The notes under the pieces are model-generated. The model was not told the origin of the DNA and searched no databases. It saw only the letters and a list, made by a program, of their open reading frames with translations. Below are positions 15,899 to 33,303 of a DNA stretch of 64,000 nucleotides, piece by piece (the first letter of the stretch is position 1; each line of letters starts with the position of its first letter). This DNA comes from Akkermansiaceae bacterium (lineage in GTDB: Bacteria; Verrucomicrobiota; Verrucomicrobiia; Verrucomicrobiales; Akkermansiaceae): assembly GCA_030725745.1 (NCBI GenBank), contig JANRFH010000015.1, positions 6,932 through 70,931 of the forward strand, written 5' to 3'. A program made the translations under genes and the position numbers.

Positions 15899-16597
15899 AT
15901 GGCGAACATCTTTCCACGCTGGTCGAACCTGCTACCCCTCAAAATCGCATTTTGCCTTGGAACCGTAGGGGCTGGTGTTGTTTTGGCCTTTAGTTACTAC
16001 GCGACGCCCAAGGCTCAAGTGGTTGGCTATCAGCCGACGCAGCCGATTCCGTTTTCTCATAAGATTCACGTTGATCAGCTCGGTCTTGATTGCCGTTATT
16101 GCCATTCCTTCGTGGATGTCGCCGGGCACTCGAACGTGCCGACCGGCAATACCTGTTGGAACTGCCACCAACACGTGCAGAAGGATAGCCCGAAGTTGGC
16201 ACCATTGCACAAGTCGATGGATGTCAATTATCCCGGATACGACGGCAAGCCGATCGAGTGGGTGCGCATCCACAAGGCTCCAGACTACGTCTATTTCAAT
16301 CACTCCGCCCACGTAAACCGGGGGATTTCCTGCCAGAGCTGCCACGGCGACGTGAACAAGATGGAAGTCGTCTATCAGGCCGAGCCGCACTCCATGGGCT
16401 GGTGCCTTGATTGCCACCGCGCACCTGAGGAGCATCTCCGCCCGCTTGAGGAAGTCTACAATCTCAACTACAGCGACGAAGACGCCAAAAAATATGTCAC
16501 CGACGGCTCCGTCGAGACCACCAAAGACCTCGGCAAGCAGCTGAAAGAAACCTTCAACGTGCATCCGAAAACGAGCTGCGCGACCTGCCACCACTAA
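15899..16597 (+). CDS. actA: ActA: pentaheme cytochrome c of alternative complex III
   Basis: The 232-residue protein has one N-terminal membrane helix (about 14-34) and five CxxCH heme sites: CRYCH (65), CWNCH (86), CQSCH (145), CLDCH (169) and CATCH (227). This number and order match ActA of alternative complex III, the quinol:electron-acceptor oxidoreductase that replaces the bc1 complex in many bacteria. The heme domain lies on the periplasmic side. It opens the actABCDEF run. The ATG at 15899 is preceded by AT-rich sequence with no Shine-Dalgarno motif, and a CRP/FNR-like palindrome lies just upstream. Confidence 0.95.
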   Translation: MANIFPRWSNLLPLKIAFCLGTVGAGVVLAFSYYATPKAQVVGYQPTQPIPFSHKIHVDQLGLDCRYCHSFVDVAGHSNVPTGNTCWNCHQHVQKDSPKLAPLHKSMDVNYPGYDGKPIEWVRIHKAPDYVYFNHSAHVNRGISCQSCHGDVNKMEVVYQAEPHSMGWCLDCHRAPEEHLRPLEEVYNLNYSDEDAKKYVTDGSVETTKDLGKQLKETFNVHPKTSCATCHH

Positions 16598-16636: not shown

Positions 16637-19600
16637 ATGAGCAAACGCATTTGGAATCACCCGGAAGTCCCACAGGACGAAACCACCGTCTCTTGGCGCA
16701 GCCCGGGACAGCTCCGTGACACCAAGGAATTCCGCACCTGGATGGATCGCGAATTTCCTCAGGGAGCTGCGGAAATGGAAAATCAGGAGGAGATGGAGAC
16801 GTCGCGTCGGACTTTCCTCAAGTTGATGGGTTCATCGACTGCGCTTGCTGGATTTGGCATGGTGGCTTGCCGTCGTCCAGAGGCTTATATCGTTCCTTAT
16901 ACTCATGCGCCTGAGTGGGTGATTCCTGGAAAAGCGACTTACTATGCCTCCTCGATGCCACGTGCTGGTGGTGCGGTGCCACTTGTTGTTACGACTTTCG
17001 AAGGTCGTCCAACAAAGCTCGGGGCGAATCGCCTCCACCCGGACTACGAAGGCACGGATGCCTTCGCGCAGGCTTCCATACTGGATCTTTATTCCACCTC
17101 GCGCTCACGCAAGGTACTCAAGAATGGTAAAGCAGCTAAGCTCGAGGATTTCCAGACAGTTCTTACTGCTCTAAAGAAGGACTCTGCAGCGAAAATCGGT
17201 TTTGTCTTCGGTGCAGATGAAAGCCCGACTCGTTTGCGCCTCATCGGGGAGCTTAAAAAGGCTTTCGGAAGCGCGAAATTTTACCAATACGAGGCTCTCA
17301 CGGCTAACAGTGCCGATGGAGTGAAGCTGCTGCCTGATTTCGCGAATGCGGATCGCATCGTCTCACTCGACTGCGATTTCACTGGTGTGGATCAGCACGG
17401 TTCAAATATCGCTTTCTTCAACCGCCGCAAGCCGGAAGGCAGAGGATACAAGGCCAAGGCAAATGCCGCTTCGATGAACCGCCTCTACTCGGTGGAGTCT
17501 GCGTTCACACTCACTGGTGGTATGGCGGATCACCGCTTGCGCGTGGCTCCAAGCCATATTGCTGCGGTTGCCGCTCAGATCGCCCGTGAACTCGGTGCTC
17601 CAGACGGTGGCATCGCCCCGATCACCGATGCGAAACAACTCGAGTGGATCAAGCAACTCGCCATCGACCTCAAAGCAAGCGGAGCGAAGACAGCGGTTCT
17701 TGCTGGCTCTCGCCAGTCCGCTGCGGTGAAACAACTGGCTCTTGGCATTAACAAGGCTCTCGGAAACATCGGCACAGGTGTTCAGGCTTTCCAGACTGAG
17801 AACAAAGGCTTTGGCGATATCGCCGCGCTCACTGCGGATCTTAATTCCTCAGCCATCGAGACGGTGGTCATGATGACTCCTTCGAATCCGGTTTACGACG
17901 CTCCGGCCGATCTGAAATTCGCCGAAGCATTCGCCAAGGCTAAAACCAGCATCCACCTCAGCGATCGCACGAACGCGACCGCTTACGCCAGCACTTGGCA
18001 CATCCCTGCAGCCCATTATCTTGAGTCATGGAGCGATGCGCGCAGCTCGCGTGGCACGGTGAGCATCGTCCAGCCGATGATTCTTCCGCTCTACCCGGAT
18101 TGTGTTTCAGAGCTTGAGCTGTTGCTCGCATTCCTTGCAGAAGAGGGGAAACTCGTCACTGGGGAAGGGGAGGACGGCGCTCCTGCACCAGCCCTTGAAG
18201 CTGTCAAAAAGACTTTCAGTGTTGATAAGACTGCTTGGAAAAACCTTCTCAAGAACGGTTTTGCCCAGGACAGCACCTATCCATCCGCGACTCCTTCCGG
18301 TGGAGGCAATGTGACTGCTGAGGCATCAAGCGCTCCTACCAAGGAAAGCCTCGATGTGATTTTCGCGACCGATGCTTCGGTCTATGACGGTCGCTGGATT
18401 GACAACGGCTGGCTCCAAGAGGCTCCCGATCCGGTTTCCAAGCTCACTTGGGACAACGCGGTGCTCATCGCTCCGAAGACGGCCAAAGAACTCGGCATCT
18501 ACGACGAGATTATTCAGCTAGAAACGACCTTCGCATCCGTTTCTCCAGATGGCGAAGGCGAGAAACGCAAGTCGCCGATGATCACCGTTACGGTGAACGG
18601 CAAGTCCGCAGATTTCCCTGTCCTCGTTTCCTTCGGCCAAGCCGAAAATACCCTCATCATCCCGCTCGGTTACGGCCAGGCATTCAACGCTGATAATGAT
18701 CTCGGCCTCGACGCGAAAAACGAGAAGTTCACAGGTCTCGTAGGTGTGAACCGTGGATTCGACGCATACCCGCTCCGCACACAGGCAACCGGCTATTTCG
18801 CCACCGGCGCGAAGATCAAGCTTACCGGCGAGAAATATCCCGTCGCACTTACCCAAGAGCACAACGCCATGTATGGCCGTGCGCTTGCCCGTGAAATTTC
18901 AACAGACACCGTTGCGCACAAAGGCGACTTCAACGCGCAGCTGAAAAACGTCCGCAAGCAGGGCATGGACTCCCATGCTCCGGTGAACATCTCGCTCTAC
19001 AAGCAGGAAGACCGCGATGGTAAGGCGCTCCTTAGCGATCCACTCCATCAGTGGGCGATGTCGATCGACCTTTCTTCCTGCATGGGTTGCAATGCCTGCC
19101 TCGTCGCCTGCCAGTCGGAAAACAACATCCCGATCGTCGGTAAAGAACAGGTCGCAAAAGGCCGCGAAATGCACTGGATCCGCATGGATCGCTACTTCGC
19201 AACTCACAAGGACAACGATTTCGATGCAGACAGCCCAGCCATGGTTCCACAACCGGTCGGCTGCATGCAGTGCGAATCCGCACCATGCGAAACGGTCTGC
19301 CCGGTCAACGCCACGGTGCACACCGAGGACGGCCTCAACGCGATGGCTTACAACCGCTGCATCGGCACCCGCTACTGCGCGAACAACTGCCCTTACAAAG
19401 CGCGCCGGTTCAACTTCTTCGACTACAACAAGCGCAACCCGCTCATCAAAAACAACCTCAACAGGGGGCCATTGGGCGAGCGTCACGACAAGGAGCCAAA
19501 TCACCTTCAGAAGAACCCGAACGTCACCGTCCGCATGCGGGGTGTCATGGAAAAATGCACCTACTGTGTGCAGCGCCTCAAGGACGCGGTCATCCGCCAG

Positions 19601-19924
19601 AAGCGCGGCCAGAAACAGGAAGTCCTCGCCTCCGGCAAGCAATCACCCGATGTCGCGGTCTCCAACGAAACCCTCCGCATCCCGGTTGATTCCGTGAAAA
19701 CTGCCTGCCAAGACGCATGCCCTGCGGAAGCAATCAGCTTCGGCAACCTCAAGGACGAGTCCAAATCCGAAATGGGACGTGCGAAGAAACTCGAGCGTAA
19801 CTACGACCTCCTCCAATACATCGGCACCGCACCGCGCACAAGCTACTTGGCTCGCGTGAAAAACCCGAATCCAGAAATGCCCGATGCGAAGTTCATCGGC
19901 CAGGCAACCATCAACATGGCCTGA
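16637..19924 (+). CDS. actB: ActB: molybdopterin-fold/iron-sulfur subunit of alternative complex III
   Basis: The 1095-residue protein fuses the two parts of ActB. Residues about 1-720 resemble the molybdopterin oxidoreductase fold but, as is usual for ActB, hold no cofactor. The C-terminal part is an NrfC/HybA-like ferredoxin with four cysteine sets: CMGCNACLVACQ, CMQCESAPCETVC, CIGTRYCANNC and CTYC...CQDACP, giving sites for one 3Fe-4S and three 4Fe-4S clusters. A twin-arginine motif SRRTFLK at about residue 56 suggests Tat export, although the leading 55 residues before it are long, as in other ActB. It starts 39 bases after actA and 36 bases before actC. Confidence 0.95.
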   Translation: MSKRIWNHPEVPQDETTVSWRSPGQLRDTKEFRTWMDREFPQGAAEMENQEEMETSRRTFLKLMGSSTALAGFGMVACRRPEAYIVPYTHAPEWVIPGKATYYASSMPRAGGAVPLVVTTFEGRPTKLGANRLHPDYEGTDAFAQASILDLYSTSRSRKVLKNGKAAKLEDFQTVLTALKKDSAAKIGFVFGADESPTRLRLIGELKKAFGSAKFYQYEALTANSADGVKLLPDFANADRIVSLDCDFTGVDQHGSNIAFFNRRKPEGRGYKAKANAASMNRLYSVESAFTLTGGMADHRLRVAPSHIAAVAAQIARELGAPDGGIAPITDAKQLEWIKQLAIDLKASGAKTAVLAGSRQSAAVKQLALGINKALGNIGTGVQAFQTENKGFGDIAALTADLNSSAIETVVMMTPSNPVYDAPADLKFAEAFAKAKTSIHLSDRTNATAYASTWHIPAAHYLESWSDARSSRGTVSIVQPMILPLYPDCVSELELLLAFLAEEGKLVTGEGEDGAPAPALEAVKKTFSVDKTAWKNLLKNGFAQDSTYPSATPSGGGNVTAEASSAPTKESLDVIFATDASVYDGRWIDNGWLQEAPDPVSKLTWDNAVLIAPKTAKELGIYDEIIQLETTFASVSPDGEGEKRKSPMITVTVNGKSADFPVLVSFGQAENTLIIPLGYGQAFNADNDLGLDAKNEKFTGLVGVNRGFDAYPLRTQATGYFATGAKIKLTGEKYPVALTQEHNAMYGRALAREISTDTVAHKGDFNAQLKNVRKQGMDSHAPVNISLYKQEDRDGKALLSDPLHQWAMSIDLSSCMGCNACLVACQSENNIPIVGKEQVAKGREMHWIRMDRYFATHKDNDFDADSPAMVPQPVGCMQCESAPCETVCPVNATVHTEDGLNAMAYNRCIGTRYCANNCPYKARRFNFFDYNKRNPLIKNNLNRGPLGERHDKEPNHLQKNPNVTVRMRGVMEKCTYCVQRLKDAVIRQKRGQKQEVLASGKQSPDVAVSNETLRIPVDSVKTACQDACPAEAISFGNLKDESKSEMGRAKKLERNYDLLQYIGTAPRTSYLARVKNPNPEMPDAKFIGQATINMA

Positions 19925-19960: not shown

Positions 19961-21433
19961 ATGGCCTCCTCCACAGAAACCGCCCCGGAAACCGGAGTTA
20001 AACTTCCGGTACTGAAGCGTGAAAAGCTGATCCTCAACGACCGTTCCTACCACTGGATCACGGATCGGATCTGCGGAATTATCGAGAACAAGCAGCCGCT
20101 CCTTTGGTGGCTTCTGTTCCTTCCATCGTCGCTGATCGCCCTGATCGGTGTCGGCGGTGGTCTATTCCACCTTGTCTCCACCGGTGTAGGTGTCTGGGGA
20201 AACACGAACCGCATCATGTGGGGCTGGCCCATCGTGAACTTCGTTTTCTGGATCGGTATCGGTCACGCCGGAACACTGATTTCCGCCATCCTTTTCCTCA
20301 CCCGGCAAAACTGGCGGACATCCATCAACCGCGCGGCGGAAGCGATGACGATCTTCGCCGTGATGTGCGCGGGTATTTTCCCTGCCTTCCACGTTGGCCG
20401 TGTCTGGTTTGCTTGGTTCCTCGCACCGGTGCCAAACGCCAACGGCATCTGGCAGAACTTCAAATCGCCGCTCCTGTGGGACGTTTTCGCGGTTTCCACC
20501 TATTTCACCGTCTCCCTTATTTTCTGGTTCCTTGGCATGGTTCCCGACCTCGCGACCATTCGTGACCGCTGCAAGCCCGGCCTGCGCAAGGTGCTCTACG
20601 GTATATTCGCCCTCGGCTGGAGAGGCGGCAACCGCCAGTGGAGCCACTACGAAATGGCTTACCTCCTTCTCGCCGCGCTTTCCACACCGCTCGTTCTTTC
20701 CGTCCACTCCGTCGTCTCCTTCGACTTCGCTACCTCGGTTGTCCCCGGCTGGCACACCACGATTTTCCCTCCATACTTCGTAGCGGGCGCGATCTTCGGT
20801 GGCTTTGCGATGGTGCTCACGATCATGATTCCCGCTCGTTTCATCTACGGTCTCCAGGATCTGATCACCATGAAGCACATCGACAACATGGCGAAAATCA
20901 TCCTGCTCACCGGCACGATCGTCGGCTACGCCTACCTGATGGAGCTCTTCGTCGCCTTCTACTCCGGAGCGATCTACGAAATGGCCGCCTTCAAATACCG
21001 CATCGCGGGGCCTTACTGGTGGGCATACGCCGCCATGATGAGCTGCAACGTTCTTTCACCACAGATCTTCTGGTTCAAGGCCTGCCGCGAGAACCTCTGG
21101 GTCGTCATGATTGTTGCGATGTGTGTTAACATCGGCATGTGGTTCGAGCGCTTCGTGATCATTGTGACCACCCTTGCCCGCATGTGGCTGCCGGGTGATT
21201 GGAAGACCTTCTCGCCATCGCCTCAGGATCAGATGCTCTTCGTCGGCACGATAGGCATGTTCCTCACGCTCTTCCTCCTCTTCCTGCGCTTCCTGCCCTG
21301 CATCAACATCGCCGAGGTGAAATGGACGAAGCTTGAGAGCGACCCACACTTCGACGACATCGAGTCGCATCCTGACAAGGGTGCGGACACCATCGCCGCC
21401 TATCAGAAAGAAATCGCTGACGCGAAGAACTGA
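19961..21433 (+). CDS. actC: ActC: NrfD-like quinol-binding subunit of alternative complex III
   Basis: The 490-residue integral membrane protein has the NrfD/PsrC pattern of about ten helices. It has the typical opening ([21 protein letters not shown]), then [27 protein letters not shown]-like APVPNANG, and a His/Glu-bearing stretch ([19 protein letters not shown]). ActC binds the quinol and feeds electrons to the iron-sulfur chain in ActB. It ends 37 bases before actD. Confidence 0.95.
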
Positions 21434-21470: not shown

Positions 21471-22028
21471 GTGAGCACCACCCGCAAACGTGTCTACGGC
21501 TACCTCGCCGAGTTCAAAAGCGCATCCGCACTCTACAAGGCGGCCGAGAAGGTTCGTGACGCAGGTTTCCGCAAATGGGACTGCTACACGCCATATCCCG
21601 TCCACGGCCTTGATGCCGCGATGGGACTGAAGCGCTCGATCCTGCCATGGTTTGTCTTCTTCGGCGGTATGACTGGCACCGCCACTGCCTTCGCGCTCGC
21701 CTACACCACCCAGGTCGTCATTTACCCGACGATTGTTCAGGCGAAACCGACCAACATCTTCACGATCCCCGCGTTCTTCCCAGTGATGTTCGAGCTTACG
21801 ATCTTGTTCTCCGGTTTCACAGTGCTCTTCGGACTACTCGCCCTGATGCAGCTCCCGCGCCTCAATCATCCTCTTTTCGCCAGCAAGCAATTCCACCGTG
21901 CTACAGACGATGGCTTCTTCATCGCCATCGAAGCACGCGACGCAAAATTCAGTCCAGACGGCACTCGCGATCTCCTCAGTGAGATCGGCGGTGAAAACAT
22001 CGAACTCGTCGAAGAGGAAGAGAAATAA
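21471..22028 (+). CDS. actD: ActD: membrane subunit of alternative complex III
   Basis: The 185-residue protein with two membrane helices (about 56-78 and 98-122) matches ActD (DUF3341). It has an N-terminal soluble alpha/beta part KRVYGYLAEFKSASALYKAAEKVRDAGF, WDCYTPYPVHGLDAAMGL before helix 1, and HPLFASKQFHRATDDGFFIAIEA after helix 2. It starts with GTG at 21471. ActD packs beside ActC and has no cofactor. Confidence 0.92.
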   Translation: MSTTRKRVYGYLAEFKSASALYKAAEKVRDAGFRKWDCYTPYPVHGLDAAMGLKRSILPWFVFFGGMTGTATAFALAYTTQVVIYPTIVQAKPTNIFTIPAFFPVMFELTILFSGFTVLFGLLALMQLPRLNHPLFASKQFHRATDDGFFIAIEARDAKFSPDGTRDLLSEIGGENIELVEEEEK

Positions 22029-22061: not shown

Positions 22062-22712
22062 ATGCGCTACTTCTTCATCACTTACGCGATTATCGCTGTC
22101 CTCGTCGTGGGCATCGGTGGCTTCCGCGGCCAACATTTCTCCAAGCCTCCTATCCAAGTTTTCCCGGATATGGACAATCAGGACAAACTCAAAGCTCAAG
22201 CTCCGAGCACGTTCTTTGCCGATCGACAAGGCGGACGCCTTCCTGTCGATGAAACGCAACCCCGCGGCTTCAACGAAGAGGGTGCTTCCGAAATCGGTGG
22301 TATCCCAGAGCCAGAGTTCGGCGGCCAAGAAGACTATTACCACACCGGCCACGTTGGTGACTACTACGGCACCGGTATGCCTGAGGAACTTGCTTTGAAC
22401 GACGAAAGCATTGTCGAATTCATTGCTAAGGGCAAAGAACGCTTCGGCATCTACTGCGCAGTTTGCCACGGTGCAGCTGGAGATGGCCTTGGAATTACTT
22501 CACGATACGGTGTCCCCGGCATCGCGAATTTACACCTCGATCCTTTCAAATCTGCTTCCTACCCGGACGGCCGTATGTTCGAGGTTATCACCAAAGGCAA
22601 AGGTCAGATGGGCGCATACGGCGCGAACATTTCAGTGCGCGATCGCTGGGCAATCATCGCCTACGTCCGCACGCTCCAAGCCGCGAAAGAAGCCGCAACC
22701 GCAGCCCAATAA
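22062..22712 (+). CDS. actE: ActE: monoheme cytochrome c of alternative complex III
   Basis: The 216-residue protein has one N-terminal membrane helix (residues 4-21) and a single CxxCH (CAVCH at about 136-140), with a GMP/GYGAN-type axial Met region downstream (KGQMGAYGANISVRDRWAIIAYVRTL). The early segment PPIQVFPDMDNQDKLKAQ is typical of ActE, which hands electrons from ActA to the terminal oxidase. It ends 10 bases before actF. Confidence 0.93.
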   Translation: MRYFFITYAIIAVLVVGIGGFRGQHFSKPPIQVFPDMDNQDKLKAQAPSTFFADRQGGRLPVDETQPRGFNEEGASEIGGIPEPEFGGQEDYYHTGHVGDYYGTGMPEELALNDESIVEFIAKGKERFGIYCAVCHGAAGDGLGITSRYGVPGIANLHLDPFKSASYPDGRMFEVITKGKGQMGAYGANISVRDRWAIIAYVRTLQAAKEAATAAQ

Positions 22713-22722
22713 ATTTTACCAG

Positions 22723-24093
22723 ATGTCCCACCACGTAACATCCGCTGACATAGCCATCAACGGCGACCACCTCGACAAGTCGAAGGTCGCCAAGCTTAAA
22801 ACCATCTGCCTCGGTATCACTGCCGTTGGCACCATTATCAGTCTCCTTGGGCTCTTCGGGGTCTTTGGTCAATGGTTCCAAGGCACCTACGCCTACTCAT
22901 GGGTTTTCGCTTACTACTTCTTCCTCACACTCTCCATCGGAGGGGTATTTTGGACGCTCCTGCATAACGTCTCGAACTCGGGGTGGGGGACTTCTGTTCG
23001 CCGGACTTTCGAAAACCTCGGCTCCACCTACCCATGGATTTTCCTATTCGGTGTTCCATTGCTTTTCCCGCAAGTGAACCAATATCTCTTCGAGTGGATG
23101 AACGTCCACCGTGCAGGTGCCGAGGCCGTTTCTGGTGGTCACGCCAAGGACATGAAGGATTACCTGCACCACACTGATCACCTTCTCTACAACAAGCTCT
23201 TTTACATGAACATTGGCAGTTGGATCGGCCGTTTCATCTTCTACGGAGTGGGTGTAACTGGAGTGATCTACTTTCTTAGGAAACTATCCACAGACCAGGA
23301 CACAGATCCGAAGCCGGGTCTTAAGCGTTTGTTCGCTGCTCGCAAGCACTCGACTTATACGCTCATCATCTTTGCGCTAACCATTACCTTCACTGGTTTC
23401 GATCTCCTCATGGGTCTCGACTATAAATGGTTCTCCACCATGTGGGGTGTATATATCTTTTCAGGCTCAGCTCTGAATTCAATGGCTGTCATCATTCTTG
23501 TCTGCACTTACCTGAAAAGCCAAGGGCACTTGAAGCACGTTACCACGCCGGAGCACTTCCACATCATGGGTAAACTGCTCTTCGCCTTCACCACCTTCTG
23601 GGCATACATTTCTTTCTCCCAGTATTTCCTTATCTGGTATGCGAACATCACCGAGGAAACCTCCTACTTCCTCATCCGCAACACGGGTAACTGGAACATC
23701 GCAATGATCTTCCTTGTCTTCGGTCACTTCGTCGTTCCCTTCGTCGTGCTTCTCCAGGCATGGCTGAAGAAGAATCCGAAATACCTCTCGATCGTGGCGG
23801 TTTACACACTTTGCATGCACGTGCTCGACCATTACCTCATTACGATTCCTGAGCGTGGTGTTTCCCTTGGAAACCTCATGATCAAGGATGGAGCAGGTAA
23901 AGTCGTGGTTGATGGACATAAGGTCTTTGGTGAAATCGCTGTCTCCATTCCCGGAGCTTTCTGGGGAGACATCCTCGCCTTCGTCACCATCGGTGCCGCT
24001 TTCGTCTTCTTCCTTCTCCGCGCCATCGGCCAGCATTCGCTCTACCCGAACCGCGATCCGCGAATCCTCGAATCCGCGAACCTCACCAACTGA
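22723..24093 (+). CDS. actF: ActF: second NrfD-like membrane subunit of alternative complex III
   Basis: The 456-residue polytopic protein is the ActC paralogue in the complex. Recognisable parts are SWVFAYYFFLTLSIGGVFWTLLHNVSNSGW, LLFPQVNQYLFEW, LLYNKLFYMNIGSWIGRF and FTGFDLLMGLDYKWFSTMWGVYIF. The frame is open for 104 codons upstream inside actE, but the ATG at 22723 follows the actE stop closely and gives the family length. ActF lacks the quinol-site residues of ActC and helps form a transmembrane path. Confidence 0.93.
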   Translation: MSHHVTSADIAINGDHLDKSKVAKLKTICLGITAVGTIISLLGLFGVFGQWFQGTYAYSWVFAYYFFLTLSIGGVFWTLLHNVSNSGWGTSVRRTFENLGSTYPWIFLFGVPLLFPQVNQYLFEWMNVHRAGAEAVSGGHAKDMKDYLHHTDHLLYNKLFYMNIGSWIGRFIFYGVGVTGVIYFLRKLSTDQDTDPKPGLKRLFAARKHSTYTLIIFALTITFTGFDLLMGLDYKWFSTMWGVYIFSGSALNSMAVIILVCTYLKSQGHLKHVTTPEHFHIMGKLLFAFTTFWAYISFSQYFLIWYANITEETSYFLIRNTGNWNIAMIFLVFGHFVVPFVVLLQAWLKKNPKYLSIVAVYTLCMHVLDHYLITIPERGVSLGNLMIKDGAGKVVVDGHKVFGEIAVSIPGAFWGDILAFVTIGAAFVFFLLRAIGQHSLYPNRDPRILESANLTN

Positions 24094-24122: not shown

Positions 24123-24902
24123 ATGGACCCCACCCGCGACAATCCCCTGATCCGCATCAAAGCCTTCATCGATGGCTTGGGCATCTTCACCTTCTTCGCA
24201 GTTGTGCTGCTGATCATCATCGGCCTCGCTGCTGCTTTTGGCCTATTCAGCAAGGGCGAAACGCCTGAGGACGCAGCCGGTGACATTCGTTATGAGACGA
24301 AGACTGAGGTAGATGCCGCTCAGGCCGCATTCCTTACTCCTGAGCAAATTTCCGCAGCTATTCCTGAGGTTTCCAAGGAGCTCATCGCTTCTAAGCCGGT
24401 CGCTGTCGAGAAAGCTGAGCAAATTGTGCCGGGTTCTGAAACTGCTCTAAACCTAGAGAATGCCCCTGCGGTCGATACCACTGAGATGGATGCTGCTGCC
24501 GAAGGTGATGCAGACGCCCCTATCGATCCTGCGGTTTTGGAAAAAGGCAAAGCCCAATACATAATGTGCATTGGGTGCCATGGTGAGAATGGCCAAGGGG
24601 TTGAGAGCGTAGCACCCCCACTTGCAGAATCAGAATGGGTCACGGGCCCGATCTCTAATCTCATTAAAATCCAGCTTCGTGGTCTTGCAGGGCCGATCGA
24701 GGTAAATGGTCGGGTCTATGAATTCGCCAACGGCATGCTTCCAATGGCCTACCAGACCAACGAGCAAATTGCCGATGTTCTTACCTACGTTCGAAACAGC
24801 TTCGGAAACAAAGCCTCCGCCGTGAAGCCTGAGCAAGTAGAAGCTCTCCGCAGTGAAGTCGGTAAGCCACAAGTCACCGTCGAAGAACTCACCAAGCCGT
24901 AA
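24123..24902 (+). CDS. membrane-anchored monoheme cytochrome c
   Basis: The 259-residue protein has a membrane helix at about 17-42, an Ala/Glu-rich linker of about 90 residues, and a C-terminal cytochrome c domain with one heme site CIGCH (about 147-151). A likely axial Met lies in GMLPMAYQTNEQIADVLTYVRNSFGN. It starts 29 bases after actF and ends 17 bases before the CcoN-like gene. It resembles the CcoP-like gene at 27220 in layout, so the two are probably paralogues. It probably carries electrons between alternative complex III and the downstream oxidase. Confidence 0.85.
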   Translation: MDPTRDNPLIRIKAFIDGLGIFTFFAVVLLIIIGLAAAFGLFSKGETPEDAAGDIRYETKTEVDAAQAAFLTPEQISAAIPEVSKELIASKPVAVEKAEQIVPGSETALNLENAPAVDTTEMDAAAEGDADAPIDPAVLEKGKAQYIMCIGCHGENGQGVESVAPPLAESEWVTGPISNLIKIQLRGLAGPIEVNGRVYEFANGMLPMAYQTNEQIADVLTYVRNSFGNKASAVKPEQVEALRSEVGKPQVTVEELTKP

Positions 24903-24919: not shown

Positions 24920-26419
24920 ATGTCATCAGCTACACAAAAATCATCCTCTCAGGACGCCCTTCTGCGCTCCGGCATCGACCGGTCGTTGCGCCATCCCGTC
25001 ATGTTTTTCATGACCAGTGGTGCTGCATGGCTCGCAGTTTCGCTTATCCTCGGAGTCATTTCTTCCGCGAAAGCGCATTCCCCTGAGTTCCTTGATGGCT
25101 GCGGCTGGTTGACTTACGGTCGTGTTCAGGCGGCTCATACCAGTGCATTGATCTACGGCTGGGGCTTCCAAGCAGCTTTCGGCATGATCATCTGGATGAT
25201 GTCGCGCTTGTCTCGTCAAGAGTGCAGAGCTTCCGGAATCATCCTAACTGCAGGACACGTCTGGAACGTTATTATTTCTCTCGGAACTCTTGGCATCCTT
25301 GCGGGGTATGGCACTGGAATGCCTTGGATGGAGTTCCCCTCATTTACTTGGCCTGTCATCACAATCACCTACGCTGTCATCATGGTCTGGTCGCTCGTCC
25401 AGTTCAAGGTGCGCCCTGAAGGACACGTTTACATCTCCCAGTGGTATCTTTTGGCCGCGATGATTTGGTTCCCATGGGTTTTCATCACCACGAATCTTCT
25501 GCTTCACGTATTTCCAGGAAATCCCGTCATGGCCGCTGGTATCAATGCTTGGTATAAATCTAGTCTGATCTTCCTGTTCTTCGTGCCGATTGGCCTTGGA
25601 ATGGCATTCTACCTTATCCCTAAGGTGACGGGTCGCGCGGTTCACAGCTACTCGCTCGCCAAGCTTGGTTTCTGGTCGCTAGCGATAATTATGCCATGGG
25701 CGGGGATGCAGAAACTTACTGGAGCACCGATTCCATATTTCATCCCTTATCTAGGTGCCGCTGCCACAGTTCTATTCTTCATCCCAGCTTTCACAGCTGC
25801 CGTCAACCTGCTCCGCACAGCGATGGCTTCTGGAGATATCGTCAACAACAGCCCGGCGCTTCGTTTCACTACGGCAGGCATCGTAGGTCTGATTGTTATG
25901 GCAGTGGCCGCGGTTTTCCTGAATCTCCCTGGCTCCACCCTGAAGCTCAGTCAATTTTCCCTCTCGGGATATGGATTTGAGATGCTCTCGCTGTATGGCT
26001 TCTTTAGCTTTGTAGCCTTCGGTGCTATCTACTTCATCGTGCCACGCATCACTGGCCGTGAGTGGCTTTCTCGCCGCCTCATCAAGATGCATTTCTTCAT
26101 CTCGATCTACGGGATCATGCTCATCGCTGTCGTTGCGATCTTCGGAGGACTCCAGCAGGGAGTTGGTCAGGAAATGTTTGACCAGCCATGGGCAACTGCC
26201 TCCACCCGCGCCTATCCCTATGCGATCTGCATCACCTTCTCGTGGTGCACCATCCTCATTTCAAACATCTTCTTCTTCATGCATCTTATGGTGATGTGGC
26301 TACGCCTCGGCCGCCGCAGCAACCACCCGACGCTTCTCGTTTCCGCTCACGGACACAGCCCGCACGGCGAGGAAGGCGATATCGATAACGCTGGCCCCGG
26401 CACAGCAGCAGCCCACTAA
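24920..26419 (+). CDS. CcoN homologue lacking CuB and heme-b3 ligands (inactive oxidase-like subunit)
   Basis: The 499-residue protein with about 12 helices aligns over its length with CcoN, the catalytic subunit of cbb3 oxidase. The helix II His is kept (YGRVQAAHTSALIYGWG). The rest of the active site is gone. Where CcoN has WYGHNAVGFF this has WYKSSLIFLFF; where CcoN has YIWAGPHH this has MPWAGMQK, losing both CuB His and the cross-linking Tyr; and where CcoN has the HVH pair in helix X this has MLSLYGFFSF. So it cannot bind CuB or a high-spin heme in the usual way. The flanking CcoO and cytochrome genes look intact. I infer a structural anchor or electron-transfer scaffold between complex III and the aa3 oxidase. 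A conventional annotation would call it cbb3 subunit I. Confidence 0.88.
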   Translation: MSSATQKSSSQDALLRSGIDRSLRHPVMFFMTSGAAWLAVSLILGVISSAKAHSPEFLDGCGWLTYGRVQAAHTSALIYGWGFQAAFGMIIWMMSRLSRQECRASGIILTAGHVWNVIISLGTLGILAGYGTGMPWMEFPSFTWPVITITYAVIMVWSLVQFKVRPEGHVYISQWYLLAAMIWFPWVFITTNLLLHVFPGNPVMAAGINAWYKSSLIFLFFVPIGLGMAFYLIPKVTGRAVHSYSLAKLGFWSLAIIMPWAGMQKLTGAPIPYFIPYLGAAATVLFFIPAFTAAVNLLRTAMASGDIVNNSPALRFTTAGIVGLIVMAVAAVFLNLPGSTLKLSQFSLSGYGFEMLSLYGFFSFVAFGAIYFIVPRITGREWLSRRLIKMHFFISIYGIMLIAVVAIFGGLQQGVGQEMFDQPWATASTRAYPYAICITFSWCTILISNIFFFMHLMVMWLRLGRRSNHPTLLVSAHGHSPHGEEGDIDNAGPGTAAAH

Positions 26420-26441: not shown

Positions 26442-27188
26442 ATGAGCTTCCGCACTTTCTTCCTCAGTCTCTCCGCCAGTTTCGGAGTGGCATGGTTGGC
26501 CATTATCATCGTCCCTTACTTCAAGATGCGTTCCTTGGAACCCATCGTGATGGAGGAAGGCGAGGGCACAAATGCAGTCTATATCCCGAAACGTGCGGGA
26601 CGTATCGCCGATGGCGCCGAAGTCTATGGCGAAAATGGCTGCTATCTCTGTCACACCCAGCTTGTCCGCCCCACATACGCGGGCAACGACCTTTTCCGTC
26701 CGGACTGGGGTGGTCTTAAAGCCATTGACGATAGGCCAGACACCCGCCGCGAGACAAACGTCTACGATTTCGAAGGCGAACAATTCGCTCAAATCGGTGT
26801 TTCCCGCATGGGCCCGGATCTTTCAAACCTCGGAGTCAGAGTCGAAGAGCTCTACGCCAAGGACATCTCTCCTGAGGATTGGCTGTATCGCCATCTTTAC
26901 AATCCACGCTTCAAGCCGGAAGACCGTGACTCGAAATGCCCTTCGTTCCGCTTCATGTTCGATGAGTCGGAGATCAAAGGAAATCCATCTGATGATGCCC
27001 TGGAATTTGCCGGAAAGAACGGTGGAGAAATTACCCCGAAACCCGAGGCTAAAGCGCTAGTTTCTTATCTTCTCTCGTTGAAAAAAGACCAAGCTGTTCC
27101 ATCGTCTCTCAACTTCGCTCCTTCTTCCGGGGAGGAAGAAGCAGCTCCTCCTGCACCCGCAGATGAGCCATCACCTGCAGGTGCCTGA
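26442..27188 (+). CDS. ccoO: CcoO-type monoheme cytochrome c
   Basis: The 248-residue protein has an N-terminal membrane helix (about 6-28) and one heme site CYLCH at about 67-71 in the CcoO context (GAEVYGENGCYLCHTQLVRP). The typical RMGPDLSNLG, with the axial Met, and YNPRFKPEDRDSKCPSFRFMFDE follow. A Pro/Ala/Glu-rich tail of about 30 residues is extra. The key residues of CcoO are kept although the CcoN-like partner upstream is ligand-free. It starts 22 bases after that gene. Confidence 0.9.
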   Translation: MSFRTFFLSLSASFGVAWLAIIIVPYFKMRSLEPIVMEEGEGTNAVYIPKRAGRIADGAEVYGENGCYLCHTQLVRPTYAGNDLFRPDWGGLKAIDDRPDTRRETNVYDFEGEQFAQIGVSRMGPDLSNLGVRVEELYAKDISPEDWLYRHLYNPRFKPEDRDSKCPSFRFMFDESEIKGNPSDDALEFAGKNGGEITPKPEAKALVSYLLSLKKDQAVPSSLNFAPSSGEEEAAPPAPADEPSPAGA

Positions 27189-27219: not shown

Positions 27220-27984
27220 ATGTCTTCGCCCGATCCGCAGCACAGCAGCAAGCCCGACCTCGACGAGTCGATCAACGTCACCAAGGCGCATGGACGCGTC
27301 GAACGGGAATCAGCAGCCACCGCCCGCGAGCAACGAATCGCCGACAACGGTCACGAGCCACTGGCTTTGTGGGTCATCGTGGCTTGTGGCATTGTTCTCC
27401 TCATTGCTGGGGGAGTGATTGGAGATGCTGGGACACTATTTTCCTACGGAAATACCTTTAAAGAAGGCTACGTGCGCGGGAAGGCACCGGGATCCTTGGA
27501 GGAGGGCCCGGCTCCCAAAGATGCGCTAGCGGCTTTCAGCGCAAAAGGTCAGAAGGTTTATTCTAAATGCAACGGTTGCCACGGCGCCGACGGTAAAGGT
27601 GGCGCGAGCTACCCATCGCTCGCAGGTTCCGCATGGGTTGTGGGCGATACCCAGAAGTTTGCGATGATCGTGTTGAATGGTCTCCAAGGGCCTGCAAGCA
27701 ATGGCAAAACCTACGGTGTGATGCCTGCCCAAGGTTCGGGCATGTCCGCACAGGATCTTGCAGCTCTGATGACCTTCGTCAGGAACGGTTTCGGAAACTC
27801 GGTAGGTGACGTGGTGACTGTGGAGATGGCAGAGAACGCCCTTGCGATTTCCGCCGCCCGCGAAAAGGTTGGCCAGGCAGTTACTGCAGAAGAGATTAAA
27901 GCGGATCACATGGTCATGCTTGAGGGTGAGCCTCTCGACCCAACGACAATGGTTGATCCCGCCAAGCTGACACCAGTCGAATAA
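27220..27984 (+). CDS. CcoP-like monoheme cytochrome c with membrane anchor
   Basis: The 254-residue protein has an acidic/basic N-terminus, a membrane helix at about 48-70 (LALWVIVACGIVLLIAGGVIG), and a cytochrome c domain with one site CNGCH (about 113-117), GMSAQDLAALMTFVRNGFGN and a Met-bearing YGVMPAQG. True CcoP carries two hemes, so this is a reduced CcoP or a dedicated electron carrier. The ATG at 27220 is preferred over an in-frame ATG at 27163 that lies inside ccoO. It closes the CcoN-like/CcoO/CcoP-like block. Confidence 0.82.
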   Translation: MSSPDPQHSSKPDLDESINVTKAHGRVERESAATAREQRIADNGHEPLALWVIVACGIVLLIAGGVIGDAGTLFSYGNTFKEGYVRGKAPGSLEEGPAPKDALAAFSAKGQKVYSKCNGCHGADGKGGASYPSLAGSAWVVGDTQKFAMIVLNGLQGPASNGKTYGVMPAQGSGMSAQDLAALMTFVRNGFGNSVGDVVTVEMAENALAISAAREKVGQAVTAEEIKADHMVMLEGEPLDPTTMVDPAKLTPVE

Positions 27985-28026: not shown

Positions 28027-29940
28027 ATGAGCGCCAACGCAGCATCTCACGACTCCTCGCATGATCACCACGACGATCATGGAGATCACCACCACAATCC
28101 TGGATTCATCCAGAAATACATTTTTTCGACGGATCACAAGACCATCGGTATTCAGTATGGTATTACCGCGATGTTGTTCCTCGCATTCGGATTCTACCTG
28201 ATGATGGTTATGCGCTGGAGCATCGCCTATCCGCATCAGCCTCTTCCGGAGTGGATGAGTTTCCTTTTCACAGATACTTGGAAAGCCCGTTGGCTTCTGG
28301 ACGGCAAAGTCACGGGTGAGACCTACAACATGTTCGGTGCTATGCACGGCACGATTATGGTCTTCCTAGGAATTGTGCCACTAGGATTCGGTGCCTTCGG
28401 CAACTACGTCACGCCCCTTCAAATTGGTGCTGTGGACATGGCTTTCCCTAAGTTGAACATGCTCAGTTACTGGATTTATTTTGTGGGTGGAGTCATCATG
28501 TGTGCCTCCTTCTTCATGGAGTCCGGTGCAGCAAAATCCGGTTGGACGAACTACTCTCCGCTGGCTGGTTTCGCCGATGGTCAGATTGTAAACCAATGGC
28601 TCGCGGGTCAGACCCAGTGGTTGATCGGGCTCGTTTGCCTCATTACGTCATCACTACTCGGCTCGGTGAATTTCATCACCACCATCATCAATCTCCGCGC
28701 ACGGGGAATGACCTGGATGCGCCTGCCGTTCTTCGTCTGGGCCATGCTTGTAACCGGCTTCCTCCTTCTGCTCGCTTTCCCACCGCTTGAAGCTGCTGGC
28801 ATCATGCAGTTGATGGATCGCGTCGCACACTCTTCGTTCTTCATGCCATCCGGTCTCTACACCAGTGCCGAAGGCCTTGCTGATCTTTCCGGCGGCGGAT
28901 CGCCTCTCTTGTTCCAGCACCTTTTCTGGTTCCTTGGTCACCCAGAGGTTTACGTCCTCCTTCTCCCTGCGATTGCCTGCGTTGCGGAAATCATTCCCGT
29001 CAACACCCGCAAGCCGCTCTGGGGATACAAGTCGATGGTCTATTCCGTCCTCATCCTTGGCTTCCTTTCCTTCATCGTGTGGGCACACCACATGTATATG
29101 ACCGGCATGGGATCCGCCGTCTCCACCTTCTTCCAGACCACGACAGTTCTGATCTCTATCCCATCGGTGATTATCATCACCGCGATGCTGATCTCTCTCT
29201 GGGGTGGTTCTATCAGATTCACCATGCCGATGCTCTGGGCATGTGCGTTCATCCCGATGTTCGGCATCGGCGGTCTCACCGGTCTTCCACTCGCTTTCAA
29301 CCTCGTCGGACTCCACCTGCATGACACTTATTACGTCATCGGTCACTTCCACTATGTGGTAGCTCCCGGTATCCTCTTTGGTCTCTTTGCCGGCGTTTAC
29401 CACTGGTATCCGAAAATGACTGGTCGATACATGAGCAACTTCCTCGGCCACCTTCACTTCTGGCCGAGCCTCGTGTGCATGAACATCATCTTCTTCCCGA
29501 TGCTCATCCAAGGTATGGCTGGCTTCCACCGCCGCTGGTATAACGGTGGCGACGCCTACCTCGCTAAGGCTGCCGACAGCACGGACGTATTTGGTAACGT
29601 GGTTCGCGATTACATTGACCTCAATATCATTATGTCTATGGGCGCATGGGCACTCGCACTCGCCCAGATTCCATTCGTGATTAACCTCTTCATCGCCTGG
29701 AAAGCTGGCAAGAAGGTCGAAAGCGACAACCCATGGGACGCCACCACACTTGAGTGGTCCACTCCGACACCTCCGGGACACGGCAACTTCACCTACGATG
29801 TCGCCGTCTATCGTGGCCCTTACGAATATTCTCGCCCTGATTGCGACAAGGATTACTTCCCACAATGGGAGGCACCCAAGAAGCCCGTGGAAGAACCCGC
29901 GGATGCGCCATCCGTCGCAAACACCAACGATCATCACTGA
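28027..29940 (+). CDS. ctaD: CtaD: aa3-type cytochrome c oxidase subunit I
   Basis: The 637-residue catalytic subunit reduces O2 and pumps protons. All ligand motifs are intact: His in GAMHGTIMVF, the CuB His and Tyr in FWFLGHPEVYVLLLP, the CuB pair in AHHMYMTGM, and HDTYYVIGHFHYVV for hemes a and a3. The Glu of the D-channel (HPEVY) is present. The His/Asp-rich N-terminus (HDSSHDHHDDHGDHHH) is unusual and could bind metal. The C-terminus extends about 60 residues past the last helix. It follows a family A leader repeat and starts the aa3 part of the cluster. Confidence 0.97.
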   Translation: MSANAASHDSSHDHHDDHGDHHHNPGFIQKYIFSTDHKTIGIQYGITAMLFLAFGFYLMMVMRWSIAYPHQPLPEWMSFLFTDTWKARWLLDGKVTGETYNMFGAMHGTIMVFLGIVPLGFGAFGNYVTPLQIGAVDMAFPKLNMLSYWIYFVGGVIMCASFFMESGAAKSGWTNYSPLAGFADGQIVNQWLAGQTQWLIGLVCLITSSLLGSVNFITTIINLRARGMTWMRLPFFVWAMLVTGFLLLLAFPPLEAAGIMQLMDRVAHSSFFMPSGLYTSAEGLADLSGGGSPLLFQHLFWFLGHPEVYVLLLPAIACVAEIIPVNTRKPLWGYKSMVYSVLILGFLSFIVWAHHMYMTGMGSAVSTFFQTTTVLISIPSVIIITAMLISLWGGSIRFTMPMLWACAFIPMFGIGGLTGLPLAFNLVGLHLHDTYYVIGHFHYVVAPGILFGLFAGVYHWYPKMTGRYMSNFLGHLHFWPSLVCMNIIFFPMLIQGMAGFHRRWYNGGDAYLAKAADSTDVFGNVVRDYIDLNIIMSMGAWALALAQIPFVINLFIAWKAGKKVESDNPWDATTLEWSTPTPPGHGNFTYDVAVYRGPYEYSRPDCDKDYFPQWEAPKKPVEEPADAPSVANTNDHH

Positions 29941-29988: not shown

Positions 29989-31647
29989 ATGGAAATCCCA
30001 TACATCGTCACTCCCCGTAAAGACACGGGTCTGATCAACTCCAAGATCGCCATCTGGCTCTTCCTCGCTTCTGAGGTCATGCTCTTCGGTGGTTTCTTCT
30101 CCGCTTACGTTTATCTGCGCATGGGTGCAGATTATCCATGGCCGGAGCGCACGCTTCCCGTCCTTCCTGGTCTCATCAACACCTTCGTGCTTATCGGCTC
30201 CTCGGTGACAGTTGTCTTCGCATGGGCTGCCCTCAAGATGCGTGAGTGGAGAAAATTCCAGATATACATGGGCATCACCGTCGCTTGCGCCGCTCTGTTC
30301 ATGGTGCTGAAAGGCGTGGAGTATAACGTCAAGTTTCATCACCAAGCTGTTCGTTTGGATGACTACTCGGTCGTTGAAGGGCACCTTGGTTACGAACTCA
30401 AAGAGGGTGCCGATGCGCATCATCCAAATGCCGATGACTACGTAAAAGACCACAACGGAGATAAGATCGAGGAAAACATGATCCGGGTGAAGGTGGAGAA
30501 GCTCACCTTCGCTACCAAGCGCTACTACGCAGAGTGGGTGGATGAAATGCTTTCCGAGGCAGACCACGCCAATGCGAAGATCACCCTAGAGGCTGATATC
30601 GAGGCCACCACCACCGAGGGTGGAAAAATGAAAGTCATCGCTAAGAAGGGCGAACCCCTCAGCCTTGATCTCCTCAAAAAGCTCAAGGATGTCCAGCTCG
30701 CCGCCCTAAAGCACAATGCTGCTCTTCGTACCCAAAATCTTCGTGAACAGTGGGTCGTCGCCAAAGATGCAAACCCTGGCAAACAAGGCTGGGAGATTAG
30801 TGATGATGTCAGCATTAACATGGATGACATTACACCGCTTATGCTTTCCGAAGTGCCAAGCGCTACATTTGTAGTGAATCCTCCGACTGAGTTCCTCTTC
30901 AAGCCAAGGGATATCCGAGAAGCTGAAGGCAGTTCAAGGCTCCGTGACGACACCGTCGTCGTCGGTGAACTCGAGGAAAGCCCAATGGTATTCCACAACG
31001 TCGATGCAGTGGACTTCCAATGGCTTGTCATGAAAGCCGAAGAGAAGGGTATCTCCCCGGAAGCCGCCATTGAGAATTCATGGCTTATGAAAAATAATGC
31101 CTTTGTCCGCGAGATATGGGCATGGCACTTGAAGCGCAACGAGGCTAAACAGAAGGATCTCAATGAGCAATATGGCTTCAAGGAAGATGAAAACGGTAAG
31201 CCAACTGAGACTCCTGATCGAGTCCTCACCCACAAAGAACTCTACCGCATCGGCTGGAAGGAATTCAGGGACTACGGTGAAGAAACCAAAGGTGTAGAAG
31301 TTTCCGCTGTTGCAGGTCTGAAAGAAGAATTCATGGGGCCGAATTACAAAGCCCGCGGTGCAGAAACCTTTCCAGAGCTTTCCCTTCCCCGCGAAGAGAT
31401 CCGCCATGCGGCGAAGTTTTCTCCGGCTTGGAACACCTACTACGCGATTTACTTCACCATCACAGGCCTGCACGGCCTTCACGTCATCGGTGGCGCGCTC
31501 GTCCTTGCCTACTACCTGTTTTTCGGACGCAAGATGTATCTGGAAAATCCGGAGTGGCTCGCAAACCGCGTCGAAGTCGGTGGACTCTTCTGGCACTTTG
31601 TCGACCTGATCTGGATCTTCGCGTTCCCGATCCTGTATTTGATGTAA
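29989..31647 (+). CDS. ctaE: CtaE: cytochrome c oxidase subunit III with a ~360-residue insertion
   Basis: The N-terminal 114 residues (KIAIWLFLASEVMLFGGFFSAYVYLR to FMVLKGVEY) and the last 77 residues (FSPAWNTYYAIYFTITGLHGLHV, then LFWHFVDLIWIFAFPILYL) form a normal subunit III. Between them lie about 360 hydrophilic residues, rich in Glu/Lys/Asp with no Cys pair, signal or membrane helix. The host family is usually about 190-260 residues; this is 552. The insert sits between the helix ending in the conserved Glu-Tyr and the next helix, at the membrane surface. Base composition and frame are continuous and no intron-like ends are seen, so I take it as a real protein insertion. Its function is unknown; docking of the neighbouring cytochromes is one possibility. 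Confidence 0.92.
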   Translation: MEIPYIVTPRKDTGLINSKIAIWLFLASEVMLFGGFFSAYVYLRMGADYPWPERTLPVLPGLINTFVLIGSSVTVVFAWAALKMREWRKFQIYMGITVACAALFMVLKGVEYNVKFHHQAVRLDDYSVVEGHLGYELKEGADAHHPNADDYVKDHNGDKIEENMIRVKVEKLTFATKRYYAEWVDEMLSEADHANAKITLEADIEATTTEGGKMKVIAKKGEPLSLDLLKKLKDVQLAALKHNAALRTQNLREQWVVAKDANPGKQGWEISDDVSINMDDITPLMLSEVPSATFVVNPPTEFLFKPRDIREAEGSSRLRDDTVVVGELEESPMVFHNVDAVDFQWLVMKAEEKGISPEAAIENSWLMKNNAFVREIWAWHLKRNEAKQKDLNEQYGFKEDENGKPTETPDRVLTHKELYRIGWKEFRDYGEETKGVEVSAVAGLKEEFMGPNYKARGAETFPELSLPREEIRHAAKFSPAWNTYYAIYFTITGLHGLHVIGGALVLAYYLFFGRKMYLENPEWLANRVEVGGLFWHFVDLIWIFAFPILYLM

Positions 31648-31681: not shown

Positions 31682-32038
31682 ATGGCCGATTCTATTGAAG
31701 CAATTCAAAAATCCAAAAAGACCTACATTCTGGTTTTTCTAGCACTCCTTGTGGGTACTGTGCTAACCGTTCTCGTTGCCGAGGCTCCCACTTGGGCTAC
31801 CTGGCTTCAATGGATGGATGTCGGCGAGCATGGCTTTGACAAGTATGATGCGATTTTGGGGCTTTTGATCGCCACCACCAAAGCGACACTCGTAGCCTAT
31901 TATTTCATGCACTTGAATCACGAGAAGAAGGCAGTATATTGGATTTTCGGCTCTGGTATCGTCTTCGTTCTCTGGATGGCTTTCCTGCTTGCTCTTGCCT
32001 ACAGGAGTCCGATCAACGATTACCTCTTCTACAAGTAA
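31682..32038 (+). CDS. ctaF: CtaF: cytochrome c oxidase subunit IV
   Basis: The 118-residue protein with three membrane helices matches the prokaryotic subunit IV family: KKTYILVFLALLVGTVLTVL, LLIATTKATLVAYYFMHLNHEKK (the family hallmark) and WIFGSGIVFVLWMAFLLALA. It has no cofactor and is thought to help assemble or stabilise the oxidase. It starts 34 bases after ctaE. Confidence 0.9.
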   Translation: MADSIEAIQKSKKTYILVFLALLVGTVLTVLVAEAPTWATWLQWMDVGEHGFDKYDAILGLLIATTKATLVAYYFMHLNHEKKAVYWIFGSGIVFVLWMAFLLALAYRSPINDYLFYK

Positions 32039-32502: not shown

Positions 32503-33303
32503 ATGACCTTTTCAGAACTCCTCGGACTTCCAAGCAACCACTCCGCACACGGTGGCCACGTCGATCACTTGATCATGGTGGTGCATTGGTTCATGCTCGC
32601 GCTGTTCGTGGGTTGGACTGTCTTCTTTTTCGTCTGCCTCTTCAAATTCTGGCACAAGCGTAATCCGAAGGCCTCCTACGATGGGGTTCGCAGCCACCTT
32701 TCCAGTCACCTTGAGGTCGGCGTGATCATTATTGAGGCGGTGCTTCTCCTTGGTTTCGCCTTTCCGCTCTGGCAGACCCGTGTGGATAGCTGGGAGAGAG
32801 TTCAGGAAATGGATCCCGTCCGTGTCCGTGTCGTCGGTTGGCAGTTCGGCTGGACTTATCACTATCCCGGTCTAGATGGGAAATTCGGTCGCACCGATGC
32901 GGCGCTGATTTCTGGCACGAACGATCTAGGTATCGACTACACCGACCCAAACGCCCTCGATGATTACACCGACTCCACCCTCAGGCTTCCGGTCAATCGT
33001 CCGGCAGTGCTCAACATCGGCACTAAGGACGTGATCCACAACTACGCGATTGTGCCGATGCGTATCCAGCAGGATGCCATCCCGGGCAAAGAGATCGCCA
33101 TGTGGTTCACACCGGTGGACAAGATCGAGACTTCCGTTGTCTGTGCCCAGCTCTGCGGCGAAGGCCATGCGAACATGATCGGAAATATGGAAGTGATCGA
33201 CGAGAAGGACTACGACTCCCAAGCGACATCCAAGTCTGAGGCTGCACTTAAAGCGAATTCCCCGAGCACTGCTCCAGAGGAGACGGCTGCGGTGATACGC
33301 TAA
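32503..33303 (+). CDS. ctaC: CtaC: cytochrome c oxidase subunit II (CuA)
   Basis: The 266-residue protein has two membrane helices (about 22-47 and 71-91) and a CuA cupredoxin domain. The CuA ligands are complete: His in KDVIHNYAIVP and CAQLCGEGHANM with both Cys, the Glu, His and Met. The aromatic patch for electron entry reads VVGWQFGWTYHYPG. No heme c domain is fused, so this is aa3 and not caa3, consistent with separate cytochromes in the cluster. A Ser/Thr/Ala-rich tail follows the domain. It is the last gene of the cluster and is followed by a terminator. Its position after the other oxidase genes is unusual; subunit II often comes first. Confidence 0.95.
   Translation: MTFSELLGLPSNHSAHGGHVDHLIMVVHWFMLALFVGWTVFFFVCLFKFWHKRNPKASYDGVRSHLSSHLEVGVIIIEAVLLLGFAFPLWQTRVDSWERVQEMDPVRVRVVGWQFGWTYHYPGLDGKFGRTDAALISGTNDLGIDYTDPNALDDYTDSTLRLPVNRPAVLNIGTKDVIHNYAIVPMRIQQDAIPGKEIAMWFTPVDKIETSVVCAQLCGEGHANMIGNMEVIDEKDYDSQATSKSEAALKANSPSTAPEETAAVIR

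Follow-up and report, generated by a model that had tools for sequence, protein, structure and literature searches.

Annotation usually treats subunit I of a heme-copper oxidase as a functional reductase of O2 or NO. The window analyzed here, a stretch of 64,000 nucleotides from an Akkermansiaceae bacterium, raises the question of what such a subunit might do once nearly all of the residues that would hold its hemes and copper have been replaced. The gene concerned (24920..26419, on the + strand, as are all features given below in window coordinates) encodes a 499-residue, all-helical membrane protein that its translation, Pfam matches, alignment and predicted structure identify as a ligand-poor homologue of CcoN. 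Its reading frame is intact, as the preliminary description had stated, with an ATG start, 499 codons and no internal stop in the translation. The protein scores 133 bits against PF00115 (COX1) and 111 bits against TIGR00780, the NCBI ccoN equivalog, well below the cut-off of 583; its ligand-complete relatives likewise fall under that cut-off, at 223-227 bits. A phmmer search against solved structures at E <= 1e-3 returned cbb3 CcoN chains only, the best with an E value of 6.6e-26.

As the reference for ligand positions we used CcoN of Pseudomonas stutzeri (3mk7) in chain numbering, in which the helix-X histidines are residues 345 and 347. We take His345 to be the ligand of heme b3 and His347, together with His60, to ligate heme b. 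The CuB ligands are His207, His257 and His258 (PMC3578206). When aligned to 3mk7, the window CcoN retains one of the seven ligand positions and has lost the other six. The sole heme ligand position kept is His73 in helix II (codon 25136..25138), the equivalent of His60. Ser214 (25559..25561) replaces the CuB ligand His207, Met258 (25691..25693) replaces the cross-linking Tyr251 of helix VII, and Gln264 and Lys265 (25709..25714) replace the CuB ligands His257 and His258, while Phe353 and Met355 (25976..25984, the middle residue included) occupy the positions of helix-X His345 and His347. The bis-histidine pair of the low-spin heme b (60 and 347) is incomplete, with His73 present and Met355 opposite it. 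These replacements agree with those in the preliminary description, which had the helix-II histidine kept and the CuB histidines, the tyrosine and both helix-X histidines exchanged; a check of the alignment for histidine at the CuB positions gave Ser214, Gln264 and Lys265 instead. No gaps interrupt the alignment to 3mk7 in helices VI, VII and X between such anchors as FW, WxG and P(K/R)xxGRE, and histidine or tyrosine occupies exactly those columns in ligand-complete homologues, including the paralogue in the window's own genome. All of the relatives that we examined within the order, at identities of 36-79%, have the ligand-poor state, so faulty sequencing or assembly does not account for it.

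The gene lies between alternative complex III (ACIII) and an aa3 oxidase, a position that had been claimed for it and that the flanking genes confirm. Upstream are ActA (15899..16597), the multiheme cytochrome c subunit of ACIII, recognized by its repeated CxxCH motifs and found at the same position in ~110 loci, followed by subunits assigned by translation and synteny: ActB (16637..19924), which resembles the Fe-S/molybdopterin family, the NrfD-like membrane subunit ActC (19961..21433), ActD (21471..22028), the cytochrome c subunit ActE (22062..22712), with the motif CAVCH, and ActF (22723..24093). Next comes a membrane-anchored mono-heme cytochrome c (24123..24902; CIGCH; PF00034, 41 bits), an extra copy seen mostly at loci of the window's family. 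Downstream of CcoN are a CcoO-like mono-heme cytochrome c (26442..27188; CYLCH; PF02433, 36 bits) and a CcoP-like membrane-anchored mono-heme cytochrome c (27220..27984; CNGCH; PF00034/PF13442), whose frame as listed opens at 27163 and whose likely start is 27220. The aa3 genes then begin with CoxA (28027..29940), an A-type oxidase subunit I by profile match and translation, in which the CuB and heme motifs HPEVY, HH and HFH are present. Profile matches identify CoxC (29989..31647), CoxD (subunit IV; 31682..32038) and the CuA subunit CoxB (32503..33303). CoxB has the CuA-type residues and lacks CxxCH, so it carries no fused cytochrome c domain. The intergenic gaps from ActF to CoxD span 17-48 bases, with a larger one before CoxB. 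CoxC has 552 residues, with two separate COX3 stretches flanking an insertion several hundred residues long.

The partner cytochromes depart somewhat from the earlier account of them. The CcoO-like protein, described as well preserved, does keep its CxxCH motif, but Cys166 (26937..26939, by alignment) replaces the SxMP methionine of solved CcoO. This position is methionine in most loci and cysteine or histidine in a few other lineages; the window has cysteine, as do all loci of its family that are readable at the motif. In the window's family this substitution could lower the heme potential and hinder the relay of electrons. The downstream protein is a cytochrome c, in keeping with the term CcoP-like, but has one heme motif only.

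To place the window in context, we read the surroundings of 140 CcoN genes (~20 kb each) and recorded which of the seven ligand positions each gene retains. Of the 188 genomes in the class sample, 134 have a homologue (in a few, the match is only distant or is to an ordinary cbb3 gene), as do 116 of the 141 in the order sample. Named relatives at 63-79% identity come from Akkermansiaceae and other Verrucomicrobiales metagenome-assembled genomes, some labelled Prosthecobacter debontii. The order ActABCDEF-CcoN-CcoO-cytochrome c is conserved as a module across the class, and the window conforms to it. Across 116 Act-linked CcoN loci, this survey of ligand co-loss gave a bimodal result: 30 loci keep six or seven of the seven ligands (all seven in 29, six in 1), 86 keep three or fewer (none in 29, one in 48, two in 8 and three in 1), and four or five are kept in none. 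The CxxCH motif of CcoO is present in all 86 ligand-poor loci, as is a cytochrome c with CxxCH (86/86). Even the helix-II histidine is replaced, by Phe or Ala, in 7 of 33 members of the order. Three loci of one family (L099, L103 and L106 of f10) keep H60 and H347 only, having lost the CuB ligands, the tyrosine and H345, and possibly represent an intermediate stage that had a low-spin heme b but lacked an O2 site. Homologues with the same neighbors and full ligand sets, which the preliminary description held to speak against its reading, do occur in the wider family, at the 30 loci above, but they leave the case of the window protein unaffected.

A close family beyond the class was sought and rejected, the out-of-class matches in the phylum sample being merely 23-26% identical; the five that we read, all from one family (f66), are ligand-complete and have no Act neighbors. 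Within the window's family, one genus (g2) has the module in none of its 20 listed genomes. The window genome also encodes, on contig C2 (L091, 5681-11819), a ligand-complete CcoN with CcoO, a cytochrome c and a P-type ATPase, preceded by a Tll0287-like gene and without Act genes; relatives of this set are found at L092 and L093. On contig C3 of the same genome (~180550-181275; L004 1435-2160), a frame of 242 residues joins ~110 N-terminal residues of a canonical CcoN to an AraC-type HTH domain. This frame is either a remnant of a true cbb3 oxidase or a misassembly, and near relatives retain a cbb3 frame of 850-900 residues.

The existence of Act-linked ligand-complete loci implies that the module descends from a ligand-complete oxidase whose ligands were lost many times. 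An ancestral ligand-complete state, taken from outgroup CcoN, followed by many separate losses is supported by the sequences compared. A tree of ActB, ActC and ActF requires at least 16 changes of ligand state and contains 14 independent pairs on starred branches; when only losses are counted and weak nodes are collapsed, the number is 17. In the CcoO tree, families f13, f19 and f28 cluster by organism regardless of the state of their CcoN, and one ligand-poor sequence of f9 (L132) is nested inside ligand-complete members of that family, with good support in the careful tree.

The competing account of origin derives ligand-poor CcoN from a single ancient version that was distributed by transfer or by differential loss, and we allow this account a minority share of the probability that is too large to neglect. 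In the otherwise raw CcoN tree, with the ligand columns removed, most ligand-poor sequences do form one clade (SH-aLRT 99), with one nested exception. Against this stand the 16 changes that would be required on the ACIII tree and the grouping of the adjacent CcoO by organism in f13, f19 and f28. When 84 function-linked CcoN columns are dropped, moreover, a family-level grouping has a slightly better fit than the unconstrained tree, and holding f13, f19 and f28 together is not rejected (p-AU 0.55, 0.79 and 0.54). The single origin read from raw CcoN trees is thus disfavored by the ACIII tree, the CcoO tree and the column-removal test. Our own reading is that the ligands would have been lost repeatedly in place, and that convergent change near the former heme pockets would draw the ligand-poor sequences together. 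It is possible that ready-made ligand-poor genes also spread by transfer. Because the raw CcoN tree groups the ligand-poor sequences and the family grouping fits only after removal of the 84 columns, the number of losses is model-dependent. The single-version account concerns origin and not function, and it is therefore compatible with the scaffold explanation developed below.

The presence of another oxidase may bear on where the ligands can be lost. Among genomes with ligand-poor CcoN, 56 of 57 also encode an A-type subunit I, versus 26 of 33 with ligand-complete CcoN (p 0.003, uncorrected for relatedness), which agrees with the idea that ligand loss would be tolerated only given another oxidase. 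By raw counts, a neighboring aa3 operon is also more frequent at ligand-poor loci (45/86) than at ligand-complete ones (6/30, scored as an aa3 subunit-I gene within ~20 kb; Fisher p 0.003). On the tree, the association of aa3 adjacency with ligand loss has no direction, at 1.5 independent pairs against 1.4. Coupling of the loss to an adjoining aa3 operon is thereby rejected as a rule, and because the independent pairs are directionless, a sequence of events in which aa3 was recruited and the active site then lost is not demonstrated.

Despite the missing ligands, the fold appears to be kept. The preliminary description had proposed a reused oxidase fold, and superposition of the predicted structure on cbb3 CcoN agrees with this. 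The AlphaFold model of the window CcoN (pLDDT 91.6, pTM 0.92) matches 3mk7 CcoN with a Z score of 45.0 and an rmsd of 2.1 Å over 444 residues, and a far more diverged Methylacidiphilum-type CcoN (pLDDT 84.6) matches 8smr and 3mk7 with Z scores of 47.1 and 46.6; both models are built from homologues and are cofactor-free. Ligand-poor CcoN is under purifying selection. In nine close pairs of ligand-poor sequences, dN/dS is 0.05-0.20 by simple Nei-Gojobori counts, with dS high in some, similar to the values for ActB and ActF in the same pairs; for the window CcoN and its relative at L059 it is 0.11, dS being high for that pair. Open frames of ~480-520 residues are retained in nearly all ligand-poor loci. 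A search for replacement ligands found no new conserved His or Cys in the order clade. Some CcoN residues are conserved specifically in the order (e.g., W442, N449, Q345 and W144), and most of the polar residues conserved in the clade are also present in ligand-complete CcoN.

Together with the retained CxxCH motifs of the partners, the fold and the selection on it point to a structural role. We think it probable that in this class an oxidase core has repeatedly become a scaffold, poor in heme or free of it, that docks a c-heme relay on ACIII. The window CcoN itself would be a pseudo-oxidase, predicted to be incapable of reducing O2 or NO by the known mechanism and serving as a structural subunit. 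It probably carries neither heme b nor CuB, although His73 may hold a heme, either by itself or together with an unusual second ligand. CcoN would dock CcoO and the cytochrome c partners to ACIII and would itself pass no electrons. Electrons from menaquinol would flow through ActB, ActA and ActE to the heme c of CcoO, the small cytochromes c or both, and from these c hemes to CuA of the aa3 oxidase encoded directly downstream. Where relatives have no aa3 genes nearby, the acceptor for this relay would be a soluble carrier or oxidase whose gene lies elsewhere. The tie of the window CcoN to ACIII and to aa3 is one of gene linkage; in the proposed scaffold the proteins would also be physically associated.

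The preliminary description had left the choice between scaffold and electron conduit open, and of these the scaffold fits the evidence above. A conduit through CcoN is unlikely, since the helix-X ligand of the low-spin heme is lost and the helix-II histidine is itself missing in 7 of the 33 order members, so that any relay must use the c hemes. The form that a conduit would take is a single remaining low-spin heme b, held by His73 and a further ligand, Met355 in the window. His73 is present in the window and most of the order, a methionine at the H347 position could ligate, and the three f10 loci with both H60 and H347 look like a one-heme stage. Most relatives, however, among them the nearest named ones, have Ile, Leu, Val or Thr in place of Met355, and as the position is not conserved we rejected Met355 as a heme ligand common to the family. 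With His73 also variable and none of the seven ligands left in 29 Act-linked loci, we judge this reading improbable. We regard with similar doubt the idea that in this class the CcoN-CcoO-cytochrome c set belongs permanently to an enlarged ACIII and that its oxidase core has become, by many parallel conversions, a ligandless membrane subunit with a distinct new function, such as ion translocation or the gating of electrons to aa3.

A new activity of CcoN unrelated to O2, such as proton or ion translocation coupled to ACIII or the binding of quinol, would account for the purifying selection and for the order-specific residues, and proton translocation by ACIII is itself debated (PMC8498564). 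Because the conserved polar residues are mostly shared with ligand-complete CcoN, however, no clear new site is seen, and we give this reading slight credence. Slow decay, with the gene a relic that its operon carries with it, could be read from branches longer than those of ligand-complete copies and from the few relatives with a stop codon within the extended match; it is disfavored as very unlikely by the full-length open frames, the low dN/dS and the intact predicted fold of two very diverged members. An oxidase or NO reductase still active through other ligands, or hidden by a shifted alignment, would suit the closest folds (CcoN and cNOR) but is disfavored to the point of being hardly credible by the gap-free alignment of helices VI, VII and X to both 3mk7 and the ligand-complete paralogue, by replacements that include Phe, Lys, Ile and Ala, and by the lack of an alternative conserved His/Cys set.

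Compared with the cbb3 oxidase (3mk7), the window set shares the fold of CcoN, its helix-II histidine, the CxxCH of the CcoO partner and the gene order N-O-cytochrome c. It differs in the six replaced ligand positions and a score far under the ccoN cut-off, in its link to ACIII, and in having a single-heme cytochrome c in place of the canonical CcoP. The window CcoN may nonetheless work like the scaffold part of the cbb3 complex. The next closest fold is that of the cNOR subunit NorB (4xyd, 3o0r; Z 38.6-40.1), whose active-site histidines are absent from the window CcoN, with Ser, Gln, Lys and Phe there. The combination of ACIII with an A-type oxidase resembles the ACIII-aa3 of Flavobacterium johnsoniae and the ACIII-caa3 of Rhodothermus marinus, each isolated as one complex (PMC8552683, PMC8361435). 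Neither supercomplex has been reported to include CcoN or CcoO subunits (PMC8552683, PMC8361435), and contact between ACIII and the oxidase is made through oxidase subunit III (PMC8361435).

Another counterpart is the C-type oxidase that verrucomicrobial methanotrophs and Opitutaceae encode next to ACIII, a homologous gene in the same module directly after ActABCDEF (PMC8498564, PMC6688271). In contrast to our reading of the window, these reports call the methanotroph and Opitutaceae gene a cbb3-type oxidase. A C-type oxidase together with ACIII is described in review only for these two groups (PMC8498564), the cbb3 type is counted among the terminal oxidases of the methanotrophs (PMC8498564, PMC10205796), and the high O2 affinity of Methylacidiphilum kamchatkense Kam1 has been linked to the cbb3 oxidase adjoining its ACIII (PMC6688271). 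In our survey, the ACIII-linked CcoN of Methylacidiphilaceae (family f8, assigned by sequence; L170, L173, L179-L185 and L199) has no more than one ligand position left: nine f8 loci and the named record of Methylacidiphilum sp. Yel read SESSHFV or ADAAHQT/V in place of HHYHHHH. A ccoN profile search of six Methylacidiphilaceae genomes returned the ligand-poor gene and weak, mostly partial matches, with no other strong one. Some published high-affinity oxidases of methanotrophs are thus probably ligand-poor CcoN as well, and a corresponding correction for strains Kam1 and SolV is strongly suggested by the nine f8 loci and Methylacidiphilum sp. Yel.

In the open-access literature searched we found no description of ligand loss in an ACIII-linked CcoN, which is not proof that none exists. 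A conserved pseudo-oxidase subunit in a respiratory operon is a real and unusual feature, and it probably had many parallel origins. Lacking the ligands that define cbb3, the window CcoN should not be annotated as a cbb3 oxidase, and annotation by family name will label ligand-poor CcoN genes as high-affinity oxidases wherever they are present. The ligand-poor and ligand-complete sets form a natural series for testing the scaffold role in supercomplexes. That the class appears to retain this subunit after repeated, all-or-none stripping of its active site suggests that the oxidase fold has structural value in itself.
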